Positions 1 through 33,562 of a stretch of DNA of 42,125 nucleotides are shown in pieces. A program made the translations under genes and the position numbers. Under the pieces are notes generated by a model. The model made no database searches. It was not told where the DNA came from and saw nothing but the letters and a program-made list of their open reading frames with translations. The DNA comes from a virus. The number at the start of each line of letters is the position of its first letter. The stretch's first letter is position 1. The stretch covers positions 1 to 42,125 of IMG/VR virus record IMGVR_UViG_3300042691_040290; one strand, 5' to 3'.

Positions 1-350
1 TATTGGAAATCTAAGAAGAATACTAAACCAGCAGGTAAAGACATTGGTTGAACAGAAACGAATTCTTTAGAAGCGATCTGACCAAATACTTTACGAACTA
101 ATGGAAGAGCAACTCCAGCCCATTGTTCACCAGTTCCTGGAGTAAATGTACCACCAGTACCAGTTTGAGATGATTCAACAACTAATTGTTTTGCTTGGTT
201 TTCAAGCATTACTGCCATGTTTGACTTGTCATAGTCTTTAAGACCTTCAAGTAAACCTGACTTTGCCCATTTGCTAGCAAGACGAGCAGCGTCTCCTTGC
301 TGTGACTGCCATGGGTTAGCAGATTCGATTAATGATTGTACTTGACTCAT
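1..350 (-). CDS. gp23: Major capsid protein, N-terminal part (T4 gp23-like), cut by window edge
   Basis: The minus strand from the ATG at 348-350 reads open to the window edge, giving about 116 residues starting MSQVQSLIESANPWQ. Residues around 80-115 contain LPLVRKVFGQIASKEFVSVQ followed by PMSLPAGLVFFLDFQ. This matches the conserved start of the mature T4 gp23 shell domain (PLVRR.F....A.ELVSVQPM..PTG). The protein should form the hexameric lattice of the head. The first ~60 residues would be the propeptide that the prohead protease removes in T4-like phages; MLE (48-50) and VVE (57-59) are the nearest candidate cut sites, and neither is a perfect (L/I)-x-E. It lies 29 bases downstream of the scaffold gene, as gene 23 follows gene 22 in T4. 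No Shine-Dalgarno sequence is seen; the leader is A-rich. Confidence 0.93.
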   Translation of the reverse strand, partial: MSQVQSLIESANPWQSQQGDAARLASKWAKSGLLEGLKDYDKSNMAVMLENQAKQLVVESSQTGTGGTFTPGTGEQWAGVALPLVRKVFGQIASKEFVSVQPMSLPAGLVFFLDFQ

Positions 351-1777: not shown

Positions 1778-2569
1778 TTATTGTATTCCTGCTAGTTTTT
1801 TTAGACGAGCTATTTCTTTTATAGTGTCAGTATTTGGAGCTAAACTTTGCCATTGTGTAGCATCATCTGTTTGTGGCATAATGTCACGTTTAGGAGCGCC
1901 TGGGACTGGTTGATTGTCTTGTTTCATTTTCTCAACATTAGTCCATATGAATTCTCCTATTTCTTTAGCGTTATCTCCTTTGTTGTATTTTTTAAATACT
2001 TCTATTACTTCAGGAGTAATTGTATTTTCAACATAACTAATTAAAGTATTTTTATTTATTTTGAGTAAGTTAGTACCTTCAACTTTAGCAGTTGGTACTT
2101 TACCTAAATCAGCAGCGATACCTAATTGAGTAGCTTTAAGTGCTCTAATTGGATTTTTAACATCAGTTAAATCAATAGCAGCCATTTTAGCTTCTGGGTT
2201 TAAGGCTGCTACTTCAGACCATCTATGATGTCCATCAATAATAAATTTGCCTCCATTTCCAGTTACAATTCTTTTATTATTAATTACCACTAATCCTCCT
2301 TTTAAATCTCTTTCAGCTGCTTGAGGATTAGTTAAAGGAAATTTTAATGATTTATCAACATCAATTTCGTTTTGAGTTGGTTTTAAGTCTCCTACTGTTG
2401 GACTAACTGTGGAAAAGTTGATTGGATGTTGATCAGATAAAGTTTTAATAGCATTTATAAACTTAGGATCTTTGATATTATCACCTAGTTCTTTAACAAA
2501 TAGATCATAGTCTATTTTTAATAATTTTTTAATCTCGTCCTCTTCAGTTTCTTTAATTCTTATTTTCAT
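1778..2569 (-). CDS. ParB/sulfiredoxin-fold-like protein with C-terminal LAGI motif
   Basis: 263 residues from the ATG at 2567-2569, which overlaps the stop of the protease gene as ATGA. A longer frame exists to 2599, but the four-base overlap and the N-terminus MKIRIKETEED (compare MRIRIKEEE at 22539) favour the internal start. The central segment GGKFIIDGHHRWSEVAAL matches the ParB-like nuclease-domain signature (DGHHRW), preceded by GGLVVINNKRIVTGNG. The family is known from DNA-binding or nucleotide-hydrolysing proteins; its role in a head operon is unclear. The C-terminus, IKEIARLKKLAGIQ, resembles the scaffold C-terminus, and an IKE tripeptide sits at residues 5-7. I infer a core-associated, possibly packaged protein. 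T4 has no such gene between 21 and 22. Confidence 0.65.
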   Translation of the reverse strand: MKIRIKETEEDEIKKLLKIDYDLFVKELGDNIKDPKFINAIKTLSDQHPINFSTVSPTVGDLKPTQNEIDVDKSLKFPLTNPQAAERDLKGGLVVINNKRIVTGNGGKFIIDGHHRWSEVAALNPEAKMAAIDLTDVKNPIRALKATQLGIAADLGKVPTAKVEGTNLLKINKNTLISYVENTITPEVIEVFKKYNKGDNAKEIGEFIWTNVEKMKQDNQPVPGAPKRDIMPQTDDATQWQSLAPNTDTIKEIARLKKLAGIQ

Positions 2570-3195
2570 TTTAAACAGCAGATTCCAGTTTGTGAACAAA
2601 TAATTTCAGAGATAAGACTATTCACTTTAGAGTACTTATTATGTTTGCTATAATTTGGGTTTACACCCTCAGTTAATCCTACTGGACGTACAAAAGCACC
2701 TTGTGTAGATGGTGTACTAACAAAATCCCAACATAATAACTCAAAGTCGTCTTGTACTTCAACTGTACCTTCACCTAATGGTTTCACTGAACCCATACCA
2801 CGAGATGAAATACCTACAGTTATATTATTTAAAAATAATTCTTTTAATATATTACCACTTGGTGTAGGTAATATTTCAATATCACCCATTAAATCATTAC
2901 CATCCCACCATAATTTTTTAATATTGTGGCTTACATTTTTTAAGTTAATGATTGATGAGTCTGGATGGTCTAATTCACCTAATGCTCTATTTTCAGCTAT
3001 AGGTCCTTCTAGGTACTTATCAACTTCACGTTTTAATGTTTCAAAACGATAAACTCTGCCATTTTGATTTTTCGCTTCAGCACGTTGTACAACACCAGAA
3101 ACAATTAAGTTTTTAGATGTAGACAACTTTGCCTCAGTTAAAGACTGAGGCGATGGTTGGAATGAAAAATATTCTATTAATACTTGTTTACTCAT
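2566..3195 (-). CDS. gp21: Prohead core protease (T4 gp21-like serine protease)
   Basis: 209 residues. Strong family signature: ALGELDHPDSS (His77), NVSHNIKKLWWDGNDLMGD, IEILPTPSGN and GISSRGMGSV (Ser130/131). These are the conserved blocks of the T4 gp21 prohead protease, which has a herpesvirus-assemblin-like fold. The enzyme matures the prohead by cutting scaffold, capsid and internal proteins after (L/I)-x-E. It carries such a site itself (LTE, residues 19-21), consistent with self-processing of its N-terminus. The stop overlaps the start of the ParB-like gene as ATGA. Its presence underpins the cargo-processing hypothesis for the rest of the window. Confidence 0.93.
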   Translation of the reverse strand: MSKQVLIEYFSFQPSPQSLTEAKLSTSKNLIVSGVVQRAEAKNQNGRVYRFETLKREVDKYLEGPIAENRALGELDHPDSSIINLKNVSHNIKKLWWDGNDLMGDIEILPTPSGNILKELFLNNITVGISSRGMGSVKPLGEGTVEVQDDFELLCWDFVSTPSTQGAFVRPVGLTEGVNPNYSKHNKYSKVNSLISEIICSQTGICCLK

Positions 3196-5029: not shown

Positions 5030-5030
5030 T

Positions 5031-7209: not shown

Positions 7210-7230
7210 ATTTTTAGTACAATACTAATT

Positions 7231-7238: not shown

Positions 7239-7243
7239 TGAAA

Positions 7244-9136
7244 CTATTTGATTTCGTCGCGAATATTATCTTCGTTTAATAAATCACTTTGTTCAAATAA
7301 GTTTGTTTTACGATTAACAGGTAATCCATTAAACATATTTTTATTTTTCAAATATGTTTCTAAAGCTAGTGGTGAACCACCTTTATATTGGGTTTTAGCT
7401 AAACTATCTTCTTGATCAGTACCAGCTGTACTATATGTTTTAGCCCCAATACGATCTTTACCAAATGGATTATCTTGTCTATTAATATTTGAAGCTGACG
7501 CTTTAGGACGACCAACTAAATGAACAGGTTCATTAGGATTTTTCTCATTATATCCTGTTGGTACTTCACTATCACCTCTACCTTTACCATAAGCTGTAGC
7601 TAATTGATGTGGTGTGCCATACACTTGGCCTGTTTCTGATGGGTCATTACCTTCACTTTCAATTTGAGTTAATCTGAATTTACGTTTTTTGTCTTCAATA
7701 ATTAAATCACGATATTCATCATATTGATCTTCACTGAAGTGGAATAAGTTATCATAAATCCATTCTGTTGGTAATAAGTTATTTTCTATTATGTTAGCAG
7801 CTAAATCAACTTTTTCTTTCATTAAATTAACACGTTCTTGATCATAAATGATAGAAGGTGTTGTTAATGATAACTCAAAGTTAGTTAATTGTTCACCATC
7901 ATATCCTTGAGTATACAAATGTACTAAGGCTATTTTAGTTAATTCACTTAATAATATACGTTGAATACGTTCTATTGTGCGAGCAAATCTAATATCTTCA
8001 GCTGCTAATGTAGCTTTACCAGTTAAGTCTTTTTCATAACCCATAAATGCTTTAGGTATCTTAAGAGCAGCGAATAATTTGTCTCTTAAGTAAGCGACGT
8101 CTTCAATACCATTATATTCTAAACCTTTTGCTGTATCAATACGAGTTGATTGGTCATTTCCTCTTACTGGTATGTAAAAGTCTTCCATCATATTCATCAT
8201 ATTGAACTTAAGATTATATTGTCCAGTTTGTGGATCAACATAAGGTATTTTCTTAAGTTTTTGAACTGTTTTTTGCATGTAAGCTTCTACTTCATTTGGA
8301 GGTATAGCACCTACATTCATATAGAAGATACGTTTTTCAGGAGCGCGAACAATACGATGGATTAACATAGCGTCTTCCATCAATATCATTTGTTTAAATA
8401 TTTTACGGCCTGGCTCTAAATAACTTCTACCATAAGGTAAATAGTTAACATCACTTATTAATCTAAAGTGAGCCATTTCATAATTTTCAAAGTAAATATC
8501 TGATGTTGATGTACCTAAAGAATACTGAGTTTGTGGAGCAGTTATACCAGATACAGATGTTGGGTCATATTTAAATCTTACATAAGTAGGATTTTTAGGA
8601 TTAGTACCTTCTTCTCTGATAATTGAATATGCGGAGAATGGTATTACATTATAAACACCAAATTTTTCAGCTATTTCTAATTTAAGATAAAAGTCACCAT
8701 ACTTGCACATATTACGAGCCCAACTCCATAAGTTAAACTCAATATTTAATACATCATAGAATAGATTGTATAATATTTTTTGAACATTCTCATCACTAGA
8801 GCGAATATGGAGTAACTCACCATGTTCATTTTTTAAAGTACACTCATCAGCTATAATATCAAGTGCTGAAGCTACAATAGCGTCAGTATCCATTGCTTCA
8901 TAGTCAGTATAAAGTTGTACTCTTAATGTTTGGTAGTTATAAACATTATTAATGTTGTAAATACCAGCGCCAGATGTTGTATAAATTTTAGTGAATCGAT
9001 CAACAAGTGCGTTTGTTTGTAAGGTACCTAACGACTGAATACGATCTGTGTCAATTACTCTTAATTCATTTCCTCCTACATTACGAATAACAACGTCAGA
9101 TGAAAATAATCGTTTGAGGCTATCAAATAATCCCAT
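7244..9136 (-). CDS. gp20: Portal vertex protein (T4 gp20-like)
   Basis: 630 residues, somewhat longer than T4 gp20 (524). Conserved blocks include YEAMDTDAIVASALDIIADE, MCKYGDFYLKL, LPYGRSYLEPGRKIFKQM, IHRIVRAPEKRIFYMNVG and a segment with EDFYIPVRGNDQSTRIDT, followed by KIPKAFMGYE. These are hallmarks of the T4-type portal, the dodecameric ring at the packaging vertex that initiates prohead assembly and through which terminase pumps DNA. The extra length is a polar C-terminal tail (about 480-630). It follows the terminase gene after a short gap containing an ATATTTAT box. No Shine-Dalgarno sequence is visible. Confidence 0.96.
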   Translation of the reverse strand: MGLFDSLKRLFSSDVVIRNVGGNELRVIDTDRIQSLGTLQTNALVDRFTKIYTTSGAGIYNINNVYNYQTLRVQLYTDYEAMDTDAIVASALDIIADECTLKNEHGELLHIRSSDENVQKILYNLFYDVLNIEFNLWSWARNMCKYGDFYLKLEIAEKFGVYNVIPFSAYSIIREEGTNPKNPTYVRFKYDPTSVSGITAPQTQYSLGTSTSDIYFENYEMAHFRLISDVNYLPYGRSYLEPGRKIFKQMILMEDAMLIHRIVRAPEKRIFYMNVGAIPPNEVEAYMQKTVQKLKKIPYVDPQTGQYNLKFNMMNMMEDFYIPVRGNDQSTRIDTAKGLEYNGIEDVAYLRDKLFAALKIPKAFMGYEKDLTGKATLAAEDIRFARTIERIQRILLSELTKIALVHLYTQGYDGEQLTNFELSLTTPSIIYDQERVNLMKEKVDLAANIIENNLLPTEWIYDNLFHFSEDQYDEYRDLIIEDKKRKFRLTQIESEGNDPSETGQVYGTPHQLATAYGKGRGDSEVPTGYNEKNPNEPVHLVGRPKASASNINRQDNPFGKDRIGAKTYSTAGTDQEDSLAKTQYKGGSPLALETYLKNKNMFNGLPVNRKTNLFEQSDLLNEDNIRDEIK

Positions 9137-9154
9137 AGTTATATAGTATATGTT

Positions 9155-9162
9155 ATAAATAT
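9155..9162 (-). promoter_or_regulatory. ATATTTAT box before the portal gene
   Basis: Intergenic copy of the recurrent octamer, 18 bases before the portal ATG. Confidence 0.4.
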
Positions 9163-9166
9163 TTAG

Positions 9167-11671: not shown

Positions 11672-12640
11672 TTAAATTTCTTCTTCGTCATCTATTTTAA
11701 TTGGTTCATCATCAATACCTAAAGCTTTTAATTCATCATCATCACTTTTCTTTTTACGTTTAGAACCCATAGCTGGTAATGTTGGTTCACCTAATGCTTT
11801 AAGAATCATTTTCATGGCGCCTTTAGTGTTAGTAGCTCCAAATTTATACTTGTCAAGATCATTTAACACTTTAATATAAGCATCATAATCTTCATCTTTT
11901 AATATTTCAATTTTGTCTACTAATTTTTGAATTAGATCTGGTAAACCAGCAGCTGCTGTTTCTTTAGATTTGGCTTGGGCTGATTTAAAATCAGCACTTG
12001 ACATTCCACCATCTTCTGCTTCTTTAATTTTACCTACTTTAATTGATGATTGAGCATATTGTTTGATAATTCGAGCAATTAAATCAGCATTATCAACAAA
12101 AAATTCTCCTGCTTTAGAACCCGCTGGTGTCATTGGAGTTGATTTGATTTTAGCTATATCAGCGGCTGATGGTTCTTCCTCATCCCCAACTCCTCCTTTA
12201 GCTTTACCCCTCAATTTAGATTTACCAATAAATAAATCTTCAGCGTCAGATGGAGTCATGAATATATCATCTTCACCTGGTTCTTCATCAGCGGCTGCTG
12301 TTGGTTTAACTGAAGTTGCTTTTAAGAGTTGATTACGAATATCAGGTGTGAAAGACCAATTAACACCAGGAGCAGAATTTTTTTCAATTTGACTTTTTAA
12401 TAATTCAACTTCCATTGGATCAATACCTTGTTCTTCACCTTGTTTAACAAAGTAATTAATTACTTGTTGTTTACGGTCTAACTTATAGTTAGATGAATTT
12501 TCAATTCTATCTTGTAAGTTAGGGAAGTCAGAATTAAGTTTGTATTTTTCTTTGGCTGGTCGAGCCATTTCTTTTACAGGTACTTTAATTTTAAGTTTTG
12601 CTTCAGTGATGTACTTTCTTAAGTCAAAATTGTCTGCCAT
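11672..12640 (-). CDS. Putative head-packaged protein with MADNF / YITEAK targeting-like N-terminus
   Basis: 322 residues. The N-terminus MADNFDLRKYITEAKLKIK is the best match in the window to the T4 capsid targeting sequence (MKTYQEFIAEA type): an amphipathic helix ending in I-T-E before Ala-Lys, which fits the gp21 (L/I)-x-E cut. The remainder is acidic and partly disordered (DEEPGEDDIF, GDEEEPSAAD), with a helical domain at about 215-285 and an acidic tail. No catalytic motif is seen. It lies just upstream of the lysis-like pair, at the downstream end of the cargo region. Confidence 0.55.
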   Translation of the reverse strand: MADNFDLRKYITEAKLKIKVPVKEMARPAKEKYKLNSDFPNLQDRIENSSNYKLDRKQQVINYFVKQGEEQGIDPMEVELLKSQIEKNSAPGVNWSFTPDIRNQLLKATSVKPTAAADEEPGEDDIFMTPSDAEDLFIGKSKLRGKAKGGVGDEEEPSAADIAKIKSTPMTPAGSKAGEFFVDNADLIARIIKQYAQSSIKVGKIKEAEDGGMSSADFKSAQAKSKETAAAGLPDLIQKLVDKIEILKDEDYDAYIKVLNDLDKYKFGATNTKGAMKMILKALGEPTLPAMGSKRKKKSDDDELKALGIDDEPIKIDDEEEI

Positions 12641-12657
12641 GTTATTGTTTTGTGGTT

Positions 12658-12665
12658 ATAAATAT
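12658..12665 (-). promoter_or_regulatory. ATATTTAT box before the gene starting at 12640
   Basis: Intergenic copy, 17 bases before the ATG and directly after the upstream stop. Confidence 0.35.
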
Positions 12666-12666
12666 T

Positions 12667-15335: not shown

Positions 15336-15632
15336 TTATTGAAAGCTTCTTATTTTATTAAACTGTCCTTGAACATAATCAATAACTCTGTCAGCGGAAA
15401 TTTTAGATCCAGCTTGTTTCATGTTTGTTAATTGCGCATCTGTTTCATCTAATATGCGATCTATTTGTTCTAACATTTCAATATATTGAGCCATTTGCTG
15501 CATTTTATCAGCAGTTGTCTCTTCATTTACTTCATCTTGTTCTGATTCATTTGATGACTCACGGTATTCACTTTCAGTAATTAAACCAGCTAAAAGCTGC
15601 ATTTTCTTAATTTCGTTAATTTGTTGTTTCAT
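15336..15632 (-). CDS. Small putative head-packaged protein with LAGL(I)TE peptide
   Basis: 98 residues. The N-terminus INEIKKMQLLAGLITE (residues 5-20) followed by SEYRES is almost identical to that of the 19527 gene. It ends in I-T-E, a gp21-type cleavage site. After it come an acidic linker and a helical coiled-coil stretch (MQQMAQYIEMLEQIDRILDE). The leader and first codons are duplicated upstream (see the repeats at 15617-15734). If cut after Glu20 the mature protein would be about 78 residues. No further function can be read. Confidence 0.6.
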   Translation of the reverse strand: MKQQINEIKKMQLLAGLITESEYRESSNESEQDEVNEETTADKMQQMAQYIEMLEQIDRILDETDAQLTNMKQAGSKISADRVIDYVQGQFNKIRSFQ

Positions 15633-15734: not shown

Positions 15735-17411
15735 GCCTATTCCTTCACCATCATGATTCACACTGTTTTTTGTATCTAAGTATACTTCAAATTCATCACC
15801 TTCAATAACTTCAATATTACCTTTTAAAGTAGATCTATCAAAATTATATTTAACATATTTTACATCAACTGCTTTACGAAATACTTTGTTAAGATCAAAT
15901 TTTTCATTAAGATCGTTAATTAACATTTTTTCTATGCTAACTCTTTCAACAGAATCATATCCATATTTTGATCCATCTCTAAGTTTTCTATTTAAAAATC
16001 CAGGATTATTTTTTAAGAATTTTTTATATCTACGTTGTGTTTCTTCTTTTCCAAATATAGGAATAAGATTCATAGTTTTAGCAGTGACTGTAGGAGAGTT
16101 ATCATCAGATGAAACTGTTTGAAAAAGTTTCTTTTGGTCTGGTGTTAATCTTATTTTTTTATCCATTATTTTTTTGTATACATCTGGTAATTTGATGAGA
16201 TTACCTTTACCTTTAGATGTTTTGGCACTTACTTCAATTACACCATCATCTGTTTTAACCATATAATCTATTAAAGGAAAAGAACCACTTTTTGGAAATA
16301 AAATATATTTTCCATTAACTTGTTTAGCATAAATCATAGCGCCTATAAGTTCACCTAAGTTCTTTAATACTTCATTTTCAAAATATTTATCACTTAATAC
16401 TTCTTTAGTTTCTTCTGGTGATAAAGTATTTTTATTATTTATAAGACCTATAATAAATGATTTTTGTTCATCATTTAATGTTTTATGATTTTGAATACCA
16501 GTTATTAATTCCTTTTTTAGTTGGTTTATAGAAATAAATTCATCTGTAGTAACACCTAATTTTTGAGGTTTTAATTCATAAAACTCACCACTTGTTTTTA
16601 ATGGTTTAAAATTAATACTTATTTTACCATATTTAAAATTACCTTTATTAGGATCAGTAGCTTTACCATATGTTTTAAGATCTTCAACTTTTTTTATTAA
16701 TTTTTTTCTATCATCATCTGTGTATACAACAATGTTAGTTGATGAAGCTGGTTGAATTTGATCTTGGGTAATTTTTAGTTGTTTTATTAAATCTTGAGCT
16801 ACAACTTTAGCATCAGGAGTTAAAACATTATATTCTAGTTTTTGATATTCTAATAATTTACTTTCTATTAGTTTGAATCGTTTAACTGATTCTTTTAGTT
16901 CTTCAGGAGCTCCACCTTCTTCTTCAGCTGGTGTTTCTTCTGGTGTAACAGTAGATGATTCTTCTGATTTTTCTTCACCTGCTGGTGGTAATTCTTCAGA
17001 TGGGCCTTCAGCTTGTGGTGGTGTACCTAACATTAATAATTCAGCTATAGACATTGTAGCATTTTGTAACTCACTTATTTTTGATAAGTAATATTTTTTG
17101 CCACTTACTTTAGCTTGATATGTTTCACCCATAAATATTAAATGGAAACTACGTCCATTATGTAAAACAACTTTAAATACAGTTGGCTTAGGTGCCATTA
17201 TGTAAATACCAGTAATGTAGTCTCTAAAATCTTCAGTTAGTAACTCAATTAAAGTTGCATTTAATGTTGGATATTTCTGTAGAATAAATTCTAAAGGATT
17301 AGATTCAAATGTAATAGCAGGAACCTCAGGTGTTGTGTCCTGAGGTATTTGGTCTATTACTTCCTCTTCTTCTTTAAGAGGTCTTGGTTTTATGATTTTA
17401 ATCTTCTTCAT
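15720..17411 (-). CDS. Large acidic-linker protein with possible restriction-nuclease-like C-terminal domain
   Basis: 563 residues. The N-terminus MKKIKIIKPRPLKEEEE gives a basic peptide ending in L-K-E. Residues 40-130 are a small alpha/beta domain, 133-175 an acidic Pro/Glu linker (PEETPAEEEGG), and about 190-563 a larger alpha/beta domain. In the latter, NLGELIGAMIYAK (351-363), FPLIDYMVK (378-386) and IEVSAKTSKGKG (392-403) resemble the E...D...(E).K layout of PD-(D/E)XK nucleases, with a candidate Asp382 and Lys397. Similar SAK-containing proteins are, from memory, present in marine T4-like phages. The nuclease call is tentative. It overlaps the upstream gene by 14 bases. Confidence 0.5.
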   Translation of the reverse strand: MKKIKIIKPRPLKEEEEVIDQIPQDTTPEVPAITFESNPLEFILQKYPTLNATLIELLTEDFRDYITGIYIMAPKPTVFKVVLHNGRSFHLIFMGETYQAKVSGKKYYLSKISELQNATMSIAELLMLGTPPQAEGPSEELPPAGEEKSEESSTVTPEETPAEEEGGAPEELKESVKRFKLIESKLLEYQKLEYNVLTPDAKVVAQDLIKQLKITQDQIQPASSTNIVVYTDDDRKKLIKKVEDLKTYGKATDPNKGNFKYGKISINFKPLKTSGEFYELKPQKLGVTTDEFISINQLKKELITGIQNHKTLNDEQKSFIIGLINNKNTLSPEETKEVLSDKYFENEVLKNLGELIGAMIYAKQVNGKYILFPKSGSFPLIDYMVKTDDGVIEVSAKTSKGKGNLIKLPDVYKKIMDKKIRLTPDQKKLFQTVSSDDNSPTVTAKTMNLIPIFGKEETQRRYKKFLKNNPGFLNRKLRDGSKYGYDSVERVSIEKMLINDLNEKFDLNKVFRKAVDVKYVKYNFDRSTLKGNIEVIEGDEFEVYLDTKNSVNHDGEGIGFQLA

Positions 17412-18072
17412 ATATGTTGTCTAATTCATGAAAGCCTTGAGCGGCTTGATCAATATAGTTTTCAGCGTTTGTAATATGATCTTGAATCCATCCTGGTATG
17501 TCACGCTCATCATTACCTAGCATAGTCATTAATTTAGAAGCTGAACTCATAATAGATTTAAGACTATTTTGAGCCATTGATACTTCATGGTCCATTCCTT
17601 CACTTAGTTTAGCAGTAGCAAAATTTACTATTCGTAGTATTTCATCTTTTGTAATACCTTGAGCTACTAATTCTTCAACTAAATCATAAAGATCAGATAA
17701 TGGAGAAGTTCTTGCTACTTCGTTTAATTTTTTATCATTCGCAGCGTTAATAACAATTTGTTTTAAAATTTGAAGTACTTCTTCTTTAGATTTTCCTGAT
17801 TTTAGCATATCTAAAATCCAATCTCCTAAAATATCTTCTTTGCCTTCTTTCTTTAATATTCCTGCTTGTAATTCATCAGGTAAGTCTTTTTGACCACCTT
17901 TTAATTTAGGATTATCATCATGTTTAGAAGTGAATGTAGCTTCTTCCATATAACCACACTCATTACACATTTTACCTTCCATTGTAGCTCCACACTCATT
18001 GCATTGTTTTTCTCTCATTTCTTTAAGCGTTTGATTTAAACGCCACTCATGAATATTAAAATTGTCTTGCAT
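17398..18072 (-). CDS. Zinc-ribbon protein with helical C-terminal domain, putative cargo
   Basis: 224 residues. The N-terminus MQDNFNIHEWRLNQTLKEM is related to the MADNF starts elsewhere and contains L-K-E. A zinc ribbon follows directly (Cys24, Cys27, Cys36, Cys39 in CNECGATMEGKMCNECG). The rest is helical. Its last third contains RDIPGWIQDHITNAENYIDQ, close in pattern to the (I)PEWVQSKIT.A..Y(I/L) motif I recall from many T4-like marine phage proteins. The role is unknown; the terminal peptide and context suggest a virion-associated protein. Confidence 0.6.
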   Translation of the reverse strand: MQDNFNIHEWRLNQTLKEMREKQCNECGATMEGKMCNECGYMEEATFTSKHDDNPKLKGGQKDLPDELQAGILKKEGKEDILGDWILDMLKSGKSKEEVLQILKQIVINAANDKKLNEVARTSPLSDLYDLVEELVAQGITKDEILRIVNFATAKLSEGMDHEVSMAQNSLKSIMSSASKLMTMLGNDERDIPGWIQDHITNAENYIDQAAQGFHELDNIYEED

Positions 18073-18078
18073 ATATTT

Positions 18079-18453
18079 TTATTTTGTTTTTCCCCAAGTT
18101 TTTCCTTTACCTTTTTTCTTACATCCAGCAGGTGTTGGACGACATGATGGATATTTAGCTCGTTTTTCACCTTCCTTTCTACCACATGGTTTACATTTTG
18201 TTTTACCATCTACTTCACGACATGTGTTACAATCAACCCAACCGCCTTCTTTACCTGGTCCACCTTTACGTGAAAACCATTTGTGTAATGACTCATCTTC
18301 TTTTAATTTTTTCCAAATCTTACCTTGACGGCAACGTACAATAGCACCTGATTTGTAAGCGGATGGTTTATCATAGCGACGATCAGCTATACGATGACAT
18401 CTATCTTTTTTTTCTTCAAGAATTTCTTTTAATATGTCAGTTAGTTTGATCAT
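18079..18453 (-). CDS. Cys-rich basic DUF5872-like protein with DILKE targeting-like peptide
   Basis: 124 residues. It opens with MIKLTDILKEILEEKK, the DILKE peptide shared with 20185, 26506 and 27300. Then comes a segment RRYDKPSAYKSGAIVRCRQG, and a Cys-rich basic block including WFSRKGGPGKEGGWVDC, CKPCGRKEGEKRAKYPSC and RPTPAGCKKKGKGK. The second block fits the DUF5872 pattern known from large phages and viruses. Spaced cysteines suggest metal binding, and the high Lys/Arg content suggests nucleic-acid binding. Its function is not established. The combination of a targeting-like leader with a basic Cys-rich domain fits a protein packed with DNA in the head. Confidence 0.7.
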   Translation of the reverse strand: MIKLTDILKEILEEKKDRCHRIADRRYDKPSAYKSGAIVRCRQGKIWKKLKEDESLHKWFSRKGGPGKEGGWVDCNTCREVDGKTKCKPCGRKEGEKRAKYPSCRPTPAGCKKKGKGKTWGKTK

Positions 18454-18473: not shown

Positions 18474-18767
18474 TTATTTTACAAGACGATTTGTTTTATT
18501 TTTTAGTTGTTTAAGCACATCTCTAATTTTACCTAATTCAGATCCTGGTTTAGCAGATTTCATAAAGTCAACTAAGTCAGATAATTTTTTATATAATTCT
18601 TCAGCGTCTACTTCATAAGATACATCCCATGATAGTTTACCTGTTTCAGGATCAATATCAGTTAATGTAGTTGTTACTCCTGGTTCTTTAGTTACTTGTC
18701 CTTTTTTAAGTTTAGACAAGTCAATATATGCGTCCTCAACTAATTTTTTTAAGTCTGATTTTTTCAT
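18474..18767 (-). CDS. Small helical protein, putative cargo
   Basis: 97 residues. The N-terminus MKKSDLKKLVEDAYIDL resembles the next gene's MKKSALKQLIREAIEEV, another short amphipathic helix. The cut site here would be the imperfect V-E-D. A beta-rich middle (TTTLTDIDPETGKLSWDVSY) and a helical end (LYKKLSDLVDFMKS) follow. Its ATG shares one base with the upstream stop (TAATG), so translation is coupled. No domain is recognised. Confidence 0.5.
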   Translation of the reverse strand: MKKSDLKKLVEDAYIDLSKLKKGQVTKEPGVTTTLTDIDPETGKLSWDVSYEVDAEELYKKLSDLVDFMKSAKPGSELGKIRDVLKQLKNKTNRLVK

Positions 18768-19195
18768 TAGTCTTTATTTGTTAGTTTACTTACAGCTTCT
18801 TCAGCTTTGCCTTTATGTTTCATGTACTCTTGCACTTTAGCTAAAGCTTCAGCTTTCATTTTTTGATAAGCATCACCTGCTTTTTTAGCTTCAGTTTTCT
18901 TTTTGTCACGCTCAGCGAGTAATTTTTCACCTAATTTTTTAGCTTTAGCTTCATTTTTGAATACACCAGCTACATTATTTGGTGACTTAACTTTACTAGC
19001 AAATTGAGATACATTTTCACACTCAAGTACTATCTCATCAATTTTAGAAGATAATGTTGGTTTTATTGTAATGAAAAATGAACCTATCTCATCAGTTTCA
19101 GGAGCGTATGCTTCAGAAAGCATATCTTCTTCAATATTAGGTTTTACTTCTTCAATAGCTTCTCTAATTAATTGTTTTAAAGCTGATTTTTTCAT
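18767..19195 (-). CDS. Helical protein with amphipathic N-terminal peptide, putative cargo
   Basis: 142 residues. It starts MKKSALKQLIREAIEEVKPN; L-I-R-E-A gives a (L/I)-x-E site at residues 10-12. A short beta-rich domain follows (FFITIKPTLSSKIDEIVLEC, about 41-60), then a Lys/Ala/Glu-rich coiled coil. It is coupled by TAATG to the next gene. No enzyme motif is visible. Confidence 0.5.
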   Translation of the reverse strand: MKKSALKQLIREAIEEVKPNIEEDMLSEAYAPETDEIGSFFITIKPTLSSKIDEIVLECENVSQFASKVKSPNNVAGVFKNEAKAKKLGEKLLAERDKKKTEAKKAGDAYQKMKAEALAKVQEYMKHKGKAEEAVSKLTNKD

Positions 19196-19221: not shown

Positions 19222-19527
19222 TTAATCTTCTTTAGCCTCATTCCATCTCTCTGTACTTCCTGACATAGTTGGAGCCTTTTTTATATCATATTCTAAATCA
19301 CTAACCATATTTCCTAATGTCTTGTGAGGAATAGCTTTTAATTTTTCATTTTTTTCATAAACTTGCTTAAGAAGTTTTAATAATTCTTCTAACTCGGCGA
19401 CATCATTTTTAGTAAATTCTTTAATACTAGATGGTTCATCACTCATCATTGCTTCTTGATATTCACTTTCAGTGATTAACCCAGCAATAAGCTGCATTTT
19501 CTTAATTTCGTTTATTGGCTTTTTCAC
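19222..19527 (-). CDS. Small putative head-packaged protein with LAGLITE peptide
   Basis: 101 residues. The N-terminus INEIKKMQLIAGLITE (5-20) plus SEYQEA matches the 15632 gene, also at DNA level: 23 bases are identical (19489-19511 against 15594-15616 and 3932-3954). It ends in I-T-E, a gp21-type site. The rest is a helical acidic stretch (VAELEELLKLLKQVYEKNEK). Its start overlaps the stop of the upstream cupin-like gene by four bases. Probably a small internal protein like its paralogue. Confidence 0.6.
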   Translation of the reverse strand: MKKPINEIKKMQLIAGLITESEYQEAMMSDEPSSIKEFTKNDVAELEELLKLLKQVYEKNEKLKAIPHKTLGNMVSDLEYDIKKAPTMSGSTERWNEAKED

Positions 19528-19788: not shown

Positions 19789-20151
19789 TTAAGGACGAGA
19801 TGGAGTAGGTGTTATACTTGGTGTTCTACTTGGTGTAACACTTATTGTAGGTGTAACACTAGGAGTTCTACTAATTGAAGGTGTAATACTAGGTGTAACA
19901 CTTATCGTAGGTGTTATACTAGGAGTAATACTTATACTAGGAGTTACACTTAAAGTTGGTTGCATACCACCAACAGCTGAGGTATTTTGTTCCATCTGTT
20001 GTTGAAATTGTTGAGATTCCATCAACATTTGTTGGACATACATGTTAGACTCTATTGTGTATTTTTTAGCTAACTCATGAAGTGGTATTCCAACGTTATC
20101 AGCTCTCTTAATATACTGTTGCCATGATCCTGGATCTTTTGTTATATACAT
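19789..20151 (-). CDS. Protein with C-terminal Thr-Pro-Ser repeat tail
   Basis: 120 residues. The first 55 form a helical, Gln-rich domain (YVQQMLMESQQFQQQMEQ). From about residue 66 to the end the chain is a repetitive tail of the type SITPTISVTPSRTPS. The same repeat forms linkers in three tail-region proteins (31408, 32465, 33563), so this protein is probably a virion component despite its place in the cargo region. The tail should be extended and could carry O-linked modification. Enzymatic activity is unlikely. Confidence 0.6.
   Translation of the reverse strand: MYITKDPGSWQQYIKRADNVGIPLHELAKKYTIESNMYVQQMLMESQQFQQQMEQNTSAVGGMQPTLSVTPSISITPSITPTISVTPSITPSISRTPSVTPTISVTPSRTPSITPTPSRP
19792..19956 (-). 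repeat. Thr-Pro-Ser coding minisatellite
   Basis: Imperfect repeats with a period of roughly 18 bases, encoding the (I/V)(S/T)(V/I)TPS tail of the 20151 gene. Confidence 0.8.
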
Positions 20152-20184: not shown

Positions 20185-21174
20185 TTATATCGGTTGAACA
20201 ACTATTCTATCTCCTACTTGTTTAACAGCTATAATAGCATCTTCAAATGCTAATATTAAACATTTAAGACTATCTATTTTTTTAGGTGATGAAGATTTTA
20301 TGTCGTTAAATTTGTTAAATTTTTTAGCTACTTGTTTAAGAGAATCAAATTCATCAATAACATCCATAAAACGTTGGTCATCAAATTCTGCTAATTTATC
20401 ATTAATACTATCTGAGCCTAAAGTTATCATACCATACTCATTATTAACGAAAGATAATCCTTCAACATTATGAGCTATTTTACGAATAAGTTTTGGTGGA
20501 TTTTCCATAGCTACAAACCCATCTAGTTTGCTTTTTTCTATTAATGAAGTATTAGCTACATCAGCTTTAGTTACTGGTAGTAAAACATCATCTATCATAA
20601 TACCAAAATAACTAGCTATACCAGGCATATATGTTCTCCACATTCCTGAGCTGCCTTCAAATAGCATACTATCACTAGCCATAGCGTATCCAATTTCAGA
20701 AACATACTCATATACTAAAGTATACATTATTTTTCCTAATCCTTTTCCTCTATATTCTACACCTATATTAGACCAATGTACTTGAAGTACTTTTAAATCA
20801 AATGCTTTTTGAAAACTATACATCCAATCACCATTGTATTTTTCTAATCGCATAATACCAGCAAATACCATATCAACTGTTGAGGCTTCTGTATTAATTA
20901 AATAGAAAACATACTCACCAGACTGTATTTTTAAAACTAATTTATATGGTCCTTCTTCATTTACTGGAGTATGTTTAGAAAAAATATCTTTAAGTAAAGG
21001 TTCAACTAATTTATTTCTTTCAGGATCCTCTACAAAATCATACTTATCCATACCTTTAACTGATAATAATGTTTGCATACCTTCAAGACCAATGTCTTCT
21101 GATGATTTGCTACTAGCGTGTCCTTTTTGTAGGCTTAATTCACTTAATTCTTTTAAGATGTCTATTAGTTTCAT
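20185..21174 (-). CDS. GNAT-family acetyltransferase with DILKE targeting-like peptide, putative injected enzyme
   Basis: 329 residues. It starts MKLIDILKELSEL, with L-K-E at residues 7-9, the same leader as the 27860 gene. The central domain (about 75-200) looks like a GNAT fold. Motif A is IGVEYRGKGLGKIMY (137-151), with the R-x-x-G-x-G acetyl-CoA loop at 142-147 and a following helix LVYEYVSEIGY. The substrate is unknown. A C-terminal region of about 120 residues has no recognised domain. T4 packs an enzyme (Alt, an ADP-ribosyltransferase) behind a similar leader and injects it. By analogy this could acetylate a host target at the start of infection, but that is inference. Confidence 0.75.
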   Translation of the reverse strand: MKLIDILKELSELSLQKGHASSKSSEDIGLEGMQTLLSVKGMDKYDFVEDPERNKLVEPLLKDIFSKHTPVNEEGPYKLVLKIQSGEYVFYLINTEASTVDMVFAGIMRLEKYNGDWMYSFQKAFDLKVLQVHWSNIGVEYRGKGLGKIMYTLVYEYVSEIGYAMASDSMLFEGSSGMWRTYMPGIASYFGIMIDDVLLPVTKADVANTSLIEKSKLDGFVAMENPPKLIRKIAHNVEGLSFVNNEYGMITLGSDSINDKLAEFDDQRFMDVIDEFDSLKQVAKKFNKFNDIKSSSPKKIDSLKCLILAFEDAIIAVKQVGDRIVVQPI

Positions 21175-21178
21175 ATTA

Positions 21179-21496
21179 TTATTTGTTTCTAATTAAAAGT
21201 TCACCTAATACTTCTAAACGACCCATCTCACGTTGGAATTCAGTTTGGGTCATGTTTAAAGATATTTTTTTATATGTTTCTTCATATTCTTTTTTAGCAT
21301 CTTCCATATTAAGTTTTCCCTCAGCTGCTTTTTTATAGTAAGGTAATTTAACTTTAAAATGATGCCAAGTTAATAATGCTAAACCACCTTTTTGCTCAGC
21401 GTTTTCTGAGATTTTAGCTGCTCCTTTACCACGAACAGTGGCGAAACTTTCAAATGTTTCTTTTACTTCGGTTAGTATTTGTATTAGACTTTTCAT
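21179..21496 (-). CDS. Small conserved helical protein with ILTE targeting-like peptide
   Basis: 105 residues. MKSLIQILTEVKETF places L-T-E at residues 8-10. After it come GKGAAKISENAEQKGGLALL, HHFKVKLPYYKKAAEGKL and QTEFQREMGRLEVLGELL. From memory, this combination recurs as a separate family in marine T4-like phages. All-helical, moderately basic, with no catalytic motif. Probably virion associated. Confidence 0.6.
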   Translation of the reverse strand: MKSLIQILTEVKETFESFATVRGKGAAKISENAEQKGGLALLTWHHFKVKLPYYKKAAEGKLNMEDAKKEYEETYKKISLNMTQTEFQREMGRLEVLGELLIRNK

Positions 21497-22149: not shown

Positions 22150-22539
22150 TTAATATGGCTTAGTAACTTTAGCTTTTGGAAGAATTTTTAATTCAATCAC
22201 ACCAGGTATTTCTTTTATTTTAGAGATTATGTCTTTAATACCTTGTTTTACATCTCCTTTTAATGAGTGTGTATCTATTTTTACATCAATGCCCGCTTCA
22301 TATCTAACTTGATTATCAGCTGAGATATTTGGTTGAGTAGCTTTAGAATTTACAATAGTAACACCAGGTAACGAGCGTATAGCTGATAAAATATCAGTTT
22401 GTGGATTTTCTTTTGTGTTAGTAATTAAATTACCTACAATTTGAAATTGTTTTCCATCAGGAGCTGGTGTTGTTTCTTCAGAAGATGGTTGTTCTTCTGG
22501 AGCTTTTGGTGTTTCTTCTTCTTTAATTCTGATTCTCAT
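22150..22539 (-). CDS. Small protein with repeated ferredoxin-like beta-alpha-beta units
   Basis: 129 residues. MRIRIKEEETP gives I-K-E at residues 5-7 (compare MKIRIKETEED at 2569). A Pro/Glu linker follows, then ILSAIRSLPGVTIVNS and DIISKIKEIPGVIELKILPK. The two helix-plus-PGV-strand units suggest a ferredoxin-like fold. No catalytic residues are evident. It shares a base with the upstream stop (TAATG at 22539), so it is translationally coupled. Confidence 0.55.
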   Translation of the reverse strand: MRIRIKEEETPKAPEEQPSSEETTPAPDGKQFQIVGNLITNTKENPQTDILSAIRSLPGVTIVNSKATQPNISADNQVRYEAGIDVKIDTHSLKGDVKQGIKDIISKIKEIPGVIELKILPKAKVTKPY

Positions 22540-23786: not shown

Positions 23787-23804
23787 AAGTACGGTTAACT
23801 AGTA

Positions 23805-23812
23805 ATAAATAT
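23805..23812 (-). promoter_or_regulatory. ATATTTAT box before the GAF-like gene
   Basis: Intergenic copy, 18 bases before the ATG, right after the upstream stop. Confidence 0.35.
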
Positions 23813-23813
23813 T

Positions 23814-24397: not shown

Positions 24398-26509
24398 TTA
24401 TTTAAACGAGGATGGAATTATAAGATTTTGTTGTTTTAATAATTTTAATAGACCAGCTACAATAACTCCTCCAGGCATTATAGCAACAGCGGTTAATCCT
24501 ACTGTTTTAAGTAGATCTTTTAACTGCTCACCTATTTGAGTTTTTTGTTCATCAGTTAATGTAATTTCTCCTTTTGATGCTTTAACTATTAATTTAAAAG
24601 CCTCTATTGTTTCTTTTTTTTCTTGTTTTAATTTACTAATGAAATTAGTGAATTTTGATTTTAAACTGTTTATAAGTTTATTTTCATTAAGTTTTTCAGT
24701 ATTATCTTTTTTCTTAAAAATATCTTCTAATTGTTTTATTGTACTTTCAGCTGATGTGTGATGTATTCCTATGCCTCCAGCGTCATTCCATCTTTGAATA
24801 TTGTCTGCTCTGTCATCTATAAGTATAGAATTTGGTGTTGCAAATTCTTGTTTACGATCAGCAGCACGTAATATAAGTTTAGTACCAGGTATATTTCTTT
24901 TTACCCAAGTGAACTTACCTATTTTAGATGATTCTTGACGTGATGGAGCTGATAATAATACTGGACTGTATGATTTAATAAAGTTCCATAACTCCCTTCC
25001 ATCAGGCATCCATTGTAATTTAATCCAAAATGCGGCTCCCGCTTTAGTTATTGGTGCCCAAAATTTCTCAGGATCAGTTCCAAAACTAGCTTTCTCACCT
25101 GTTAATTCAAAATATCCTCTATCAAAATCTACTAACACACCATCCATATCACAATATATTTTATATGGTTTTTTCTCTTCAGCTTCATTTAATGTTTCAA
25201 ATATTTCTGGTCTGTATTGTCCAAATTGTCTCAATAAGACTCCCGCGGCAGCATTAGCTTCGTTTTCAATAGGTGAACCTGTTTTACCAGAGTCAGGATC
25301 TAACATACCTAATTCATCTTGTTTTCTATGAACTAATTCATGAGCTAGTGTACGTAAAATATCTGCTGTTAATCTAGAGCCTTTAACAACTAGTAATTCA
25401 TCAGTTTTAGGATTATAGGCTCCTAATGAATGCATATTACGAGCTAAATCTTCATCATCAGTGAAATTTATTTTAGGTATTTGTTTTAATTCAAGAGCGT
25501 CAACAGCAAAATCTATAAAATCTTGTATCACATCTCCATTATCACCTACTTCTTTAAGTTGTTTTTTCCACCATTTGATAGAAAATAAATTTTCTTCTAT
25601 ATTATGTTCTATACCAACTTTATCTAAATAAGCTAAAACTTGTTGACGTTGTTCATTGCTAGGATCTCCTAAGTTAGGTATTAACATACGTCTTTTTTCT
25701 CCATTAAATGCTTTTTGAGAATACTCAAATGGTATTAAGTTTGTATTGAGCCAATTCTCTAAATCAGGTGTTTTATCATATGGAACTACAATAACTAAAT
25801 TGCCATTTTCCTCGTTTTCTTTTAATGTTTCAATATCTAATACTGGTATTCCTAATATGTTAAGTATATCATCAAATTTTCCTTTTTGAGTTACAAAATC
25901 AGGAAAACATCCTTGTACTATTTTATATGTGTTTAGATACTCATTTCTAGCTTTAGAATATTCTGTTGAGTTTTTATCAGATATAGAGCGTAATTTAAGT
26001 ACTGTTTTTTTAAGTTGATTTAAATATTCACGTACTTGTGTACCTGATGCTCTTTTACCTTGTGTCACAACTTTTTCTTCAACAGGTACTGTTATTATTC
26101 TATCACCAAATGCTTTAGTTAATGAATTAAAATAACTTTGAACATCAGCATCACCAGCCACACCAGCAACTCTAGCTCTTAATTCTAAGTCATCATCCAT
26201 TATAGAAAATATATCTTTAACAGGTGATGGATTTTCAGCTATTCTGATTGTTACTTGAGATATGGGTTGAATTTCTTGATATAAGTCCCAGATCTTCTTA
26301 CTCATTTCTTTGGTTATACCATCACGTTCACTATGTCCTATTAATACTATTACTTTAGTAACATCAGGACGTGAAATCAGATCTTTAACTACTTCATAAT
26401 GTCCTTCATGTGGTGGTTTAAAACCCCCTGGATAGTAACATATACTAGGAGTTTTGTCTGGTTGATCTTCCTCGTTTATTTGTTGTAGTATAGTTTTTAA
26501 TTCAATCAT
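24398..26509 (-). CDS. Multidomain cargo polyprotein: nucleotidyltransferase, HExxH peptidase, HAD phosphatase, LETM1-like tail
   Basis: 703 residues. Start MIELKTILQQINEEDQ: a targeting-like peptide ending I-N-E (11-13). Domain 1 (22-220) is a HIGH-superfamily nucleotidyltransferase: PGGFKPPHEGH (27-37) and KRASGTQVREYL (152-163). Residues 233-315 are a small alpha/beta part. Domain 3 (321-440) is a zinc metallopeptidase: AHELVH (389-394), with NEANAAAGVLL (416-426) as a likely third-ligand helix. Domain 4 (447-600) is HAD-like: YCDMDGVLVDFD (452-463), LLSAPSR (518-524) and ILIDDRADNI (562-571). Residues 640-703 resemble a LETM1 end (LTDEQ...LLKTVG, MPGG, LIIPSSFK). (L/I)-x-E tripeptides sit at the linkers: INE13, LKE231, LKE320, LNE442, LNE609. 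I infer cutting by the gp21-like protease into separate enzymes. It overlaps the upstream kinase gene by four bases. Confidence 0.8.
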   Translation of the reverse strand: MIELKTILQQINEEDQPDKTPSICYYPGGFKPPHEGHYEVVKDLISRPDVTKVIVLIGHSERDGITKEMSKKIWDLYQEIQPISQVTIRIAENPSPVKDIFSIMDDDLELRARVAGVAGDADVQSYFNSLTKAFGDRIITVPVEEKVVTQGKRASGTQVREYLNQLKKTVLKLRSISDKNSTEYSKARNEYLNTYKIVQGCFPDFVTQKGKFDDILNILGIPVLDIETLKENEENGNLVIVVPYDKTPDLENWLNTNLIPFEYSQKAFNGEKRRMLIPNLGDPSNEQRQQVLAYLDKVGIEHNIEENLFSIKWWKKQLKEVGDNGDVIQDFIDFAVDALELKQIPKINFTDDEDLARNMHSLGAYNPKTDELLVVKGSRLTADILRTLAHELVHRKQDELGMLDPDSGKTGSPIENEANAAAGVLLRQFGQYRPEIFETLNEAEEKKPYKIYCDMDGVLVDFDRGYFELTGEKASFGTDPEKFWAPITKAGAAFWIKLQWMPDGRELWNFIKSYSPVLLSAPSRQESSKIGKFTWVKRNIPGTKLILRAADRKQEFATPNSILIDDRADNIQRWNDAGGIGIHHTSAESTIKQLEDIFKKKDNTEKLNENKLINSLKSKFTNFISKLKQEKKETIEAFKLIVKASKGEITLTDEQKTQIGEQLKDLLKTVGLTAVAIMPGGVIVAGLLKLLKQQNLIIPSSFK

Positions 26510-27297
26510 TGAATGAATGCTTGTATTTTTGATTTAGCGTCTTCTATAGTTGTAAATTCTGGGGGATTTTGAAGAAATGATTTGATATTTCTATTTAGTT
26601 CATCTCTATCTCTTCTAGCTTTAGCCATTTCTTTAGGTGATTTTACTTTACCTTTATATGTGTTAGTAAAAAATCTTGATTTTATTTCTTTTTCATCATA
26701 ATCAGTTTCAGCGTCTTCTGGATTGTTATTTACTATGATAAAGTTATCTCCAAATGCTTGTTTATAAGCATCTATATTTTTATTTACACCTTCCCATGTT
26801 CTTAAAACAATACTTGGTGTTAAACTTCTACCACCTTCATCTCCACGTTTAACATTTCTAGTTAAAGATGTTATAGGTGAAACATAAATCATTAACATTA
26901 AAGTATCATATCCTAAACCTTCTAATTCTTGCTTTTTCTTAAGTAATGGTAATGAAGCAGCTCCAGTTCCATCAATAATAATATTGTGAAGATTTTCTAC
27001 AGATACTTTATATTTCTCTTTAGTTATTTTTTGAGCTTGCCCCATCATTTTAGCAGCGGTGGCTAATCTTTGAGCATATTCTTCATCTGATTCAGTATCA
27101 GATTGAGTTATTTTTAAACCTACACCAGCTGTTTTCAATAATTCTTCATAAGTGTCATCAACATTAATAGTTTCAAATCCAGATATTGGCATTTGACGTA
27201 CAATAGTTGACTTACCAGCACCAGCAGGACCAGATAAAAAGATAGCTTTAGGACGTGATCCTATAACTTCTTTAAGTATATCAACAAGTTTAATCAT
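26506..27297 (-). CDS. Zeta-toxin-like P-loop kinase with DILKE targeting-like peptide
   Basis: 263 residues. It starts MIKLVDILKEVIGSRPK, with L-K-E at 8-10. Directly after come AIFLSGPAGAGKSTIVRQM (Walker A GPAGAGKST, 23-31), NVDDTYEEL, NIIIDGTGAASLP, and a basic lid-like segment LTRNVKRGDEGGRSL. The layout fits the zeta-toxin/P-loop kinase group, which phosphorylates nucleotides, UDP-sugars or polynucleotides. The substrate is unknown. The leader joined to a kinase suggests an enzyme that enters the host with the DNA. Stop and start overlap as ATGA with the polyprotein gene, so the two are made together. Confidence 0.75.
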   Translation of the reverse strand: MIKLVDILKEVIGSRPKAIFLSGPAGAGKSTIVRQMPISGFETINVDDTYEELLKTAGVGLKITQSDTESDEEYAQRLATAAKMMGQAQKITKEKYKVSVENLHNIIIDGTGAASLPLLKKKQELEGLGYDTLMLMIYVSPITSLTRNVKRGDEGGRSLTPSIVLRTWEGVNKNIDAYKQAFGDNFIIVNNNPEDAETDYDEKEIKSRFFTNTYKGKVKSPKEMAKARRDRDELNRNIKSFLQNPPEFTTIEDAKSKIQAFIQ

Positions 27298-27299: not shown

Positions 27300-27860
27300 T
27301 TAAGCTATTTTCGCCGCTAATTGTTCTAATTCTGAAAATTTTAAAGCAACTGCTCCTCCTTCTAATCCTTTTATAACAGCATTAGTAGCTTCTACCGCTG
27401 ATATTCCAGCTCCTATAATACCCGCGGCTAATAAAGCAGCATATAAACCGTGAGCTGCTTTATGTAAGTTTGATTTTTCATCAAATACATCTTCATCACC
27501 ATAACTTTTAGGATATGCTTTTTTTAATGCTAATCCAATCCATTCAATGTATTTATGTTCCCATTTATGACCAAGTTTTCGTAAATAAGCTCCTATTTTT
27601 GTTTTTGGTATCATACCTTGAGAAAGATATGATGAAAGAGCATCAGCGGCATGTCCCATTATATTTAATAAACCTGGGGCTCCTACAACTAGTGAATATA
27701 AAGTTGCTAAACCTTCTTCTAACTCTTTATCTTTAGGAGAAGGTTTTACAGTTGATACTGTTGATTTAAGATCTTTTAAAGCTGCTTCTAATCCTTTTTC
27801 AAGTGTTTGTTCAGCTTCAGCTTCATTGATGTTTTCTTTTAAAATGTCTATTAGTTTCAT
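27300..27860 (-). CDS. Putative cargo protein with two hydrophobic segments and DILKE peptide
   Basis: 186 residues from the ATG at 27858-27860. The open frame begins seven codons earlier, but those lie over the ATATTTAT-box leader, and MKLIDILKENINEAEAE matches the other leaders. (L/I)-x-E sites are at LKE (7-9) and INE (11-13). Two hydrophobic segments follow (about 52-70, TLYSLVVGAPGLLNIMGHA, and 134-156, AAHGLYAALLAAGIIGAGIS), separated by a basic helical part (KWEHKYIEWIGLALKKAYPK). It may insert in the host membrane after injection or pack as a helical bundle. No known family is recognised. Confidence 0.6.
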   Translation of the reverse strand: MKLIDILKENINEAEAEQTLEKGLEAALKDLKSTVSTVKPSPKDKELEEGLATLYSLVVGAPGLLNIMGHAADALSSYLSQGMIPKTKIGAYLRKLGHKWEHKYIEWIGLALKKAYPKSYGDEDVFDEKSNLHKAAHGLYAALLAAGIIGAGISAVEATNAVIKGLEGGAVALKFSELEQLAAKIA

Positions 27861-31407: not shown

Positions 31408-32454
31408 TTAACAAGTGTAAGTAGCGCAAGAGTATAAAGCTGGGTTTATTGATATTGTGACTGTTAATCCACCTACAGTTATAGTTTGACCATTACTTCT
31501 AATAACACCATTAACTGTTATTTGATTTATACCATATTTAGTCATAATAGGATCACCACAAGTTAAAGGAGTATTTCCTGATATAGCTCCAAGTGTATCC
31601 CCAGCGGATATAGTTAATGTGTCTCCAATAAAATTGTCACTTCCTAGAGGAAATTCACAAGCACTATCAAATCCAGTCACAGGAGCTGAGGTTATATTTA
31701 TATCTCCTGTTAATATTCTATTTAATGAGAAGAAATATACTCCACTACTATATCCATTAAATGATAAAATAGCACCAGTAGATGGTGTTGAACTTGGTGT
31801 CACACTTATTGTAGGTGTGACACTAGGCGTCCTACTTGGTGTCACACTTATTGTAGGTGTGATACTAGGAGTAACACTAATACTTGGTGTGACACTAGGT
31901 GTAATACTAATACTTGGTGTGACACTAGGTGTAACACTCACAGATGGAGTGACACTAGGTGTGGCACTTATACTTGGTGTTACACTTATTGTAGGAGTAA
32001 CACTCACACTAGGATAAATACTAGGTGTAACACTAGGAGTTGGTGTAAAGTAAGGTCTTGGAGCCCATTGTGTGTCCCATTTAATTAAAAATGTAACATC
32101 AGTATTTGATGACAAAGGCATTGGTGAGGCCATTTTAGCTACAGCTAATAACTCACCAGCATCATTATATAACCCAACAGTTGTTACATAAGGAGAAAAA
32201 TAAGATCCTGATATAGATCCAGTGACAAAATCTTTTAGTATACCATGATTACTACCACTGTTATAATAAATAATATTACTACCAACTGATCCACTATATG
32301 GTACTAATTGTCCTTGACTACCTGATAATAATGTTGGATTATAACTTAAATTATATTCATAGTCTTTAACAGTACATTTAATAAAATTCTCATAAACAAC
32401 ATTATTGTTTTTAAATTTTATTTTAGCTAAATTTACATCTAAAGTTCTATCCAT
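31408..32454 (-). CDS. Tail/fibre-like protein with TPS repeat linker
   Basis: 348 residues. Residues 28-130 (YFSPYVTTVGLYNDAGELLA, VAKM..P, TFLIKWDTQW) form a domain also seen at the C-terminus of the 35810 protein (TFITTIGMYNNSGDLLAIAK). Residues 137-226 are Thr-Pro-Ser repeats, and 228-348 a beta-rich domain with late cysteines (YSCATYTC at the end). This looks like an adaptor domain, an extended stalk and a distal domain, as in a host-binding fibre or decoration protein. It is the last of a run of structural genes. Confidence 0.6.
   Translation of the reverse strand: MDRTLDVNLAKIKFKNNNVVYENFIKCTVKDYEYNLSYNPTLLSGSQGQLVPYSGSVGSNIIYYNSGSNHGILKDFVTGSISGSYFSPYVTTVGLYNDAGELLAVAKMASPMPLSSNTDVTFLIKWDTQWAPRPYFTPTPSVTPSIYPSVSVTPTISVTPSISATPSVTPSVSVTPSVTPSISITPSVTPSISVTPSITPTISVTPSRTPSVTPTISVTPSSTPSTGAILSFNGYSSGVYFFSLNRILTGDINITSAPVTGFDSACEFPLGSDNFIGDTLTISAGDTLGAISGNTPLTCGDPIMTKYGINQITVNGVIRSNGQTITVGGLTVTISINPALYSCATYTC
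31777..32046 (-). repeat. Thr-Pro-Ser coding minisatellite (largest array)
   Basis: About 270 bases of imperfect repeats, period near 18 (also 24 and 30), encoding SVTPSISVTPS-type units, residues 137-226 of the 32454 gene product. The array is in frame throughout. Confidence 0.85.
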
Positions 32455-32464
32455 ATTGTTATAA

Positions 32465-33556: not shown

Positions 33557-33562
33557 AATTTA

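Follow-up and report, generated by a model that had tools for sequence, protein, structure and literature searches.

In the window, by which we mean the whole 42 kb stretch of phage DNA analyzed here (42,125 nucleotides), a minus-strand gene encodes a GNAT-fold protein (P0001) behind a nine-residue leader, MKLIDILKE. This protein is likely to be an acetyltransferase that is packaged in the phage head, processed by the prohead protease and then ejected, as one of many cargoes that carry interchangeable head-targeting tags. The evidence lies in the open reading frame itself, a GNAT fold in the predicted structure, a conserved acetyl-CoA loop, a leader that is modular and swappable, and a prohead protease gene in the same genome. 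The gene and its parts are as follows:

20185..21174, minus strand: P0001, GNAT-fold protein with a head-targeting-like leader, 329 aa (ORF, homologues, AF2 model)
21148..21174, minus strand: leader MKLIDILKE, residues 1–9 (family conservation; common to unrelated proteins)
20500..20970, minus strand: GNAT domain, about residues 69–225 (fold matches at model residues 69–226; PF00583 match at 20686–20862)
20734..20751, minus strand: GNAT motif A loop R142-G-K-G-L-G147 (conservation in 17 homologues)
20188..20499, minus strand: C-terminal domain, residues 226–329 (colinear in P0004 and in all complete homologues)

The initial annotation had given this reading frame, its MKLIDILKE start and the motif R142-x-x-G-x-G147, all of which are as it described; the strand is minus, with an ATG start codon at 21174.

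A GNAT call from the six-residue RxxGxG motif alone was dropped, since its frequency was no better than chance upon shuffling: [QR]xxGx[GA] was present in 7 of the 49 window ORFs (5.7 expected) and arose in 11.5% of P0001 shuffles. Direct searches of Pfam (hmmscan), PHROGs, NCBIfam and PDB sequences with P0001 gave nothing useful (best PHROG E 0.08). A profile search with PF00583 had P0001 as its sole match in the 42 kb window, below the cut-off (E 0.002), and P0004, a 322-aa ORF on a related contig, exceeded the PF00583 cut-off (hmmscan, 23.2 vs 20.7 bits). The two proteins are full-length homologues with 24% identity across 265 aa (E 8e-27). One close homologue of P0001 (65–67%), syntenic and with an identical leader, was present among viral contigs, and no copies were found in INPHARED isolated phages or GTDB genomes. 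Further scans of related phage records, followed by extraction, yielded a family alignment of 17 rows, in which G145 and G147 are invariant, R142 is near-invariant and conservation is highest in the acetyl-CoA loop (YRGKGLG, YRGQGIG, YRKQGIG and YRGQGLG, with WKGKGYG in L158). The C-terminal ~100 residues of P0001 are conserved together with the GNAT domain; polyvalent proteins are defined by at least two distinct effector domains, and P0001 combines the GNAT domain with this unassigned C-terminal one. GNATs without a leader are also present in related phages (L107, L109), and therefore the leader is not inherent to GNATs.

An AF2 model built from the 17-sequence alignment (pLDDT 74.5, pTM 0.76; a model from two sequences only, at pLDDT 35.5, was discarded) places loop 141–147 between strand E129–137 and helix H146–160, i.e. 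in the beta4-alpha3 order of GNATs. Residues 1–27, the leader region, have pLDDT below 50. The great majority of top Foldseek matches in the PDB were acetyltransferases (KKT23, Naa60, HAT1, NatD, GCN5, TacT; E to 5e-5), and VIA-align gave Z 11.0 to yeast HAT1 and 9–10 to many GNATs, over model residues 69–226 or, for Z up to 11.0, 26–210. TM-scores were modest, and therefore neither subfamily nor substrate is readable from the fold. The model thus supports a GNAT fold for P0001, with acetyltransferase activity predicted. The GNAT call of the initial annotation stands on this AF2 fold and the Foldseek and VIA-align matches that agree with it, the motif alone being at chance level. That annotation had also named two contrary outcomes, a fold other than GNAT and loss of the loop in all homologues; structure prediction gave GNAT, and every full-length homologue retains the loop, in one case as a variant sequence. 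An ADP-ribosyltransferase fold, as in the T4 Alt family, was set aside in view of the confident GNAT model at residues 69–226, and a distant BFVD match to Achromobacter phage Motura was set aside after no homologue was found within the first 50 kb of the Motura genome. We give very little credence to the idea that the GNAT fold has no catalytic activity and that its role is one of binding or decoy. The family alignment revealed no conserved general base and the closest folds cover many functions, as such an idea would have it, but the best-kept stretch of the family is precisely the acetyl-CoA loop.

The window belongs to a T4-like phage with a G+C content of 31% and almost every gene on the minus strand, whose hosts are probably freshwater bacteria. 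Three of its head genes are recognizable:

7244..9136, minus strand: T4-type portal protein gp20 (PF07230, E 2.7e-67)
2566..3195, minus strand: prohead protease, Peptidase_S77, T4 gp21 family (PF03420, E 4.8e-27; phrog_207)
1..350, minus strand: start of the major capsid protein (MCP), homologous to the MCPs of the phages immuto and Mel-JY01

By portal identity, Flavobacterium phage immuto (59.7%) and Microcystis phage Mel-JY01 (49.8%) are the nearest isolates, and a Bacteroidota host is therefore likely. In the MCP, a conserved [VLI]xE probably marks the end of the propeptide, ahead of the mature part; the presumed ends are LVVE/SSQTG in the window, IVSE/ANVTG in immuto and LISE/ANRTG in Mel-JY01, and T4 has FLTE/AEIGG. 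As a counterpoint, the likely site in the window MCP has V at P3, not L or I. The N-terminus of the S77 protease itself contains LIE and LTE, and L7-K8-E9 of the P0001 leader is a predicted site of this protease.

Across the 17-row family, K2, L3, D5 and L7 of the leader are invariant and LxE is found in every row; homologues in L129 and L130 start MIKLTDLLGE, with K8 variable and LxE retained. DNA coding for MKLIDILKE turned up in 38 stretches of viral contigs, where a wide variety of proteins carry it. Flavobacterium phage immuto (host LMO8) has a few leaders of this type too, among them MIKLIDLLTE on immuto26A_40. Among 1308 genes of related loci whose choice did not depend on the leader pattern, 64 had the core L-x-[DE]-[ILV]-L-x-E within the first 20 residues (shuffled mean 0.6, maximum 3), and it occurred 23 times elsewhere, a 44-fold enrichment per residue at N-termini. 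When all loci were taken, pattern-selected ones included, 85 leader carriers formed 39 clusters, among which no similarity could be detected past residue 16. With one member taken from each cluster, K, L, L and E do not vary and the codons for them do (CTA 17, TTA 14, CTT 3, TTG 3 etc.); therefore conservation acts on the peptide. None of the leader strings was found in the literature searched.

In the window, the leader or a variant of it precedes several other proteins, and two further carriers stand out in related loci (L numbers):

27300..27860, minus strand: second MKLIDILKE protein, with an unrelated hydrophobic body (leader identity)
26506..27297, minus strand: zeta-toxin-like kinase, leader MIKLVDILKE (PF06414, E 2.5e-10)
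18079..18453, minus strand: DUF5872-like protein, leader MIKLTDILKE (PF19197, E 3.6e-5, below cut-off)
24398..26509, minus strand: 703-aa multi-enzyme protein, leader-like MIELKTILQQINEE (Pfam and PHROG matches)
21179..21496, minus strand: small protein, leader variant MKSLIQILTE (leader comparison)
L043 1617–2039, plus strand: second GNAT-like protein, unrelated, leader MKLIDILKE, loop RGKHYA (PF13508, E 2e-4, below cut-off in a one-genome search)
L060 3582–4316, plus strand: Tad3-family protein, leader MRLVDILKE (PF25185, 112.8 bits, E 1e-32)

Homologues of the small protein start MIKLTQLLTE, MIKFIKLLLE, MIKLINILKE or MIKLLELLKE. The 703-aa protein combines a CTP-transferase-like nucleotidyltransferase domain, a metalloprotease-like region and a 5'-nucleotidase, and looks like a packaged multi-enzyme protein. 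Carriers in related loci include a zeta-toxin-like kinase (L064), a methyltransferase (L010, 4e-8), a nucleotidyltransferase (L089), weakly ART-like proteins (L060 and L068, below cut-off) and a metallopeptidase with weak likeness to the effector family M91 (L046). The GNAT-like protein of L043 would mean that a GNAT was recruited behind the tag on a separate occasion. In L060, the Tad3 domain (name and Thoeris-inhibitor function as given by Pfam) begins at residue 11, directly after MRLVDILKE, and its fusion partner is a domain akin to the window protein at 22150–22539; Tad3 homologues in Xanthomonas, Rhizobium, Vibrio and Arthrobacter phages have their N-terminus 2–5 residues before the domain and lack the leader. 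In L124 and L129 a leader-bearing gene lies immediately upstream of the GNAT homologue, as expected for a cargo island. The L124 gene in that position (4955–6004, plus strand) encodes an alpha/beta-hydrolase-looking protein with the leader MIKLTHLLKE. A separate observation concerns SVTPSITPTISVTPS repeats, which are shared by three adjacent tail-region proteins (31408–34717, minus strand) and a small protein beside the GNAT gene (19789–20151, minus strand).

Other leader classes are found on head-region proteins of the window:

1778–2569, 3203–3970, 4112–5029, 11672–12640, 15336–15632, 17398–18072, 18767–19195, 19222–19527 and 22150–22539, all minus strand: head-region proteins with other leader classes

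These classes are M[KR]IRIKE, NEIKKMQLxAGLI[TN]E, NFNxxxW/F... and KKSALKQLIREA, and in related phages they replace the MIKLxDILKE class on homologous bodies; the same bodies occur elsewhere with N-termini such as MKIRIKE, KxSELKQLIREA, FNITEW..RLKE and LAGIITE. Among other-leader homologues with an N-terminal extension, 115 of 122 (94%) had [LI]xE within the first 24 residues, vs 32% of internal blocks. In the window itself, N-termini with [LI]xE were found for 23 of 37 head- or cargo-region genes vs 1 of 12 tail-region genes (p 0.001); both tests use related sequences, so that p-values are overstated and only indicative. The initial annotation had described the leader as capsid-targeting-like, which the comparison of genes supports well: the leader is modular and swappable, it ends L-x-E, and an S77 protease is encoded in the genome. 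At the opposite end of two proteins, the C-termini of a putative core protein (380–1501, minus strand; ...RRMQQLAGIIK) and of the 1778–2569 product (minus strand; ...RLKKLAGIQ) resemble the N-terminal KKMQLLAGLITE leader, possibly as a shared docking motif.

It is highly improbable that the leader has nothing to do with the head and is instead some general feature of N-termini, for instance a membrane-binding helix or an element for starting translation. Such a feature could well be short, N-terminal and amphipathic, as the leader is, and a conserved AT-rich element does lie just upstream of some starts in related loci; but codons vary where residues are fixed, dissimilar leader classes interchange on one body and nearly all of them keep [LI]xE, and the tail-region genes, with that one exception, are without it. 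With respect to the upstream elements, AATATTTATWA occurs on the minus strand at 7229–7239, 9153–9163, 12656–12666 and 23803–23813, about 16–20 bases ahead of gene starts, and these 4 copies compare with 0.9 expected (0 of 100 shuffles). Similar AATATTTAT elements stand directly 5' of many GNAT homologues (L118–L158). AATATTTATWA/AATATTTAT is a possible late promoter or start-site element. The T4 late promoter TATAAATA was not enriched in the window (13 found vs 13.7 expected).

The GNAT gene is one of a row of small genes that separates the terminase/portal block from the tail genes. This location among head and packaging genes would also suit a protein that the leader docks on the assembling head and that works within the producing cell, or modifies virion proteins such as core or internal ones, instead of being injected, and T4 IPIII, too, assists head assembly besides being a head protein (PMC9026906). 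We consider this unlikely. The neighboring gene m21498 was present in 60 loci, and this GNAT was close by only in the L002 contig; since the GNAT is missing from most related loci, it is an accessory gene rather than an assembly factor. Furthermore, the bodies behind the leader include host-directed activities (Tad3-family, zeta kinases, weakly ART-like proteins, a methyltransferase), which argues against a role confined to the producing cell or virion.

We therefore favor packaging and ejection of P0001, for which the following route is proposed. A head-targeting propeptide of ~9 residues would precede the GNAT-fold N-acetyltransferase, and this amphipathic leader would dock on the prohead core during assembly, like T4 capsid-targeting sequences. 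The S77 prohead protease would then cut after L-K-E (E9) and free the mature enzyme within the head. Once packaged, the mature enzyme would leave the head with the DNA and may acetylate a host protein or another amine target at the start of infection. More broadly, and with somewhat less assurance, we lean towards a general delivery code in this group of T4-like phages: interchangeable N-terminal tags ending [LI]xE would direct enzymes and anti-defence proteins, dozens of them and unrelated to one another, to the head to be injected, and a tag swap would be enough to recruit a new effector; its cargoes would be GNATs, zeta kinases, ART-like proteins, methyltransferases and Tad3-family Thoeris inhibitors. 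If true, the leader alone would tell from the sequence which proteins a phage injects, uncharacterized ones included, and a few dozen uncharacterized ORFs of uncultured phages would become a testable list of first-minute effectors. It would also suggest that anti-Thoeris proteins can be pre-loaded instead of made after entry. In addition, phages that infect other bacterial groups could be used to deliver proteins by means of such short tags.

In its proposed working the tag resembles T4 capsid-targeting sequences, and therefore its kind is already known. In T4, the first 10 residues of IPIII suffice for head entry, residues 4 and 7 matter for targeting and 8 and 10 for processing, and gp21 cleaves after L/I-X-E (PMC9026906). 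The N-terminus of IPIII in the T4 record, MKTYQEFIAE, equals MIKLTDILKE in length and shares hydrophobic residues at 4 and 7, with L8 and E10 in the leader; hydrophobic spacing and LxE are alike and few residues are identical, so that the likeness is one of pattern only. As with T4 IPI, IPII and IPIII, a leader of ~10 aa ending L/I-X-E is carried by otherwise unrelated accessory proteins, and an S77/gp21 prohead protease is encoded in the same genome (2566–3195, minus strand). In contrast to the three small basic internal proteins of T4, the putative targeting leaders described here comprise several swappable classes on many enzymes and effectors. Like T4 Alt, P0001 is predicted to modify the host and to carry a very short propeptide at its N-terminus, although Alt is an ADP-ribosyltransferase and P0001 has a GNAT fold. 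The suggestion in the initial annotation that an injected acetylase would be a new effector type was too strong. Injected GNATs within phage polyvalent proteins were predicted in 2017 by Iyer et al (PMC5512222), and Rac, a GNAT of phiKMV-like phages, reportedly inactivates the RNA polymerase of its host (PMC7552054). Like Rac, P0001 would be a phage GNAT directed at the host; for Rac, the available portion of that report describes an effect on the RNA polymerase alpha subunit and notes no head-targeting leader. The polyvalent-protein GNATs are, like P0001, predicted injected acetyltransferases, but they are domains of multidomain proteins or solo late genes, whereas P0001 is a solo enzyme with a recognizable leader and its own conserved C-terminal domain. 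What appears to be novel is hence a solo, tag-delivered GNAT, together with a large set of unrelated effectors that carry interchangeable tags in this phage group.
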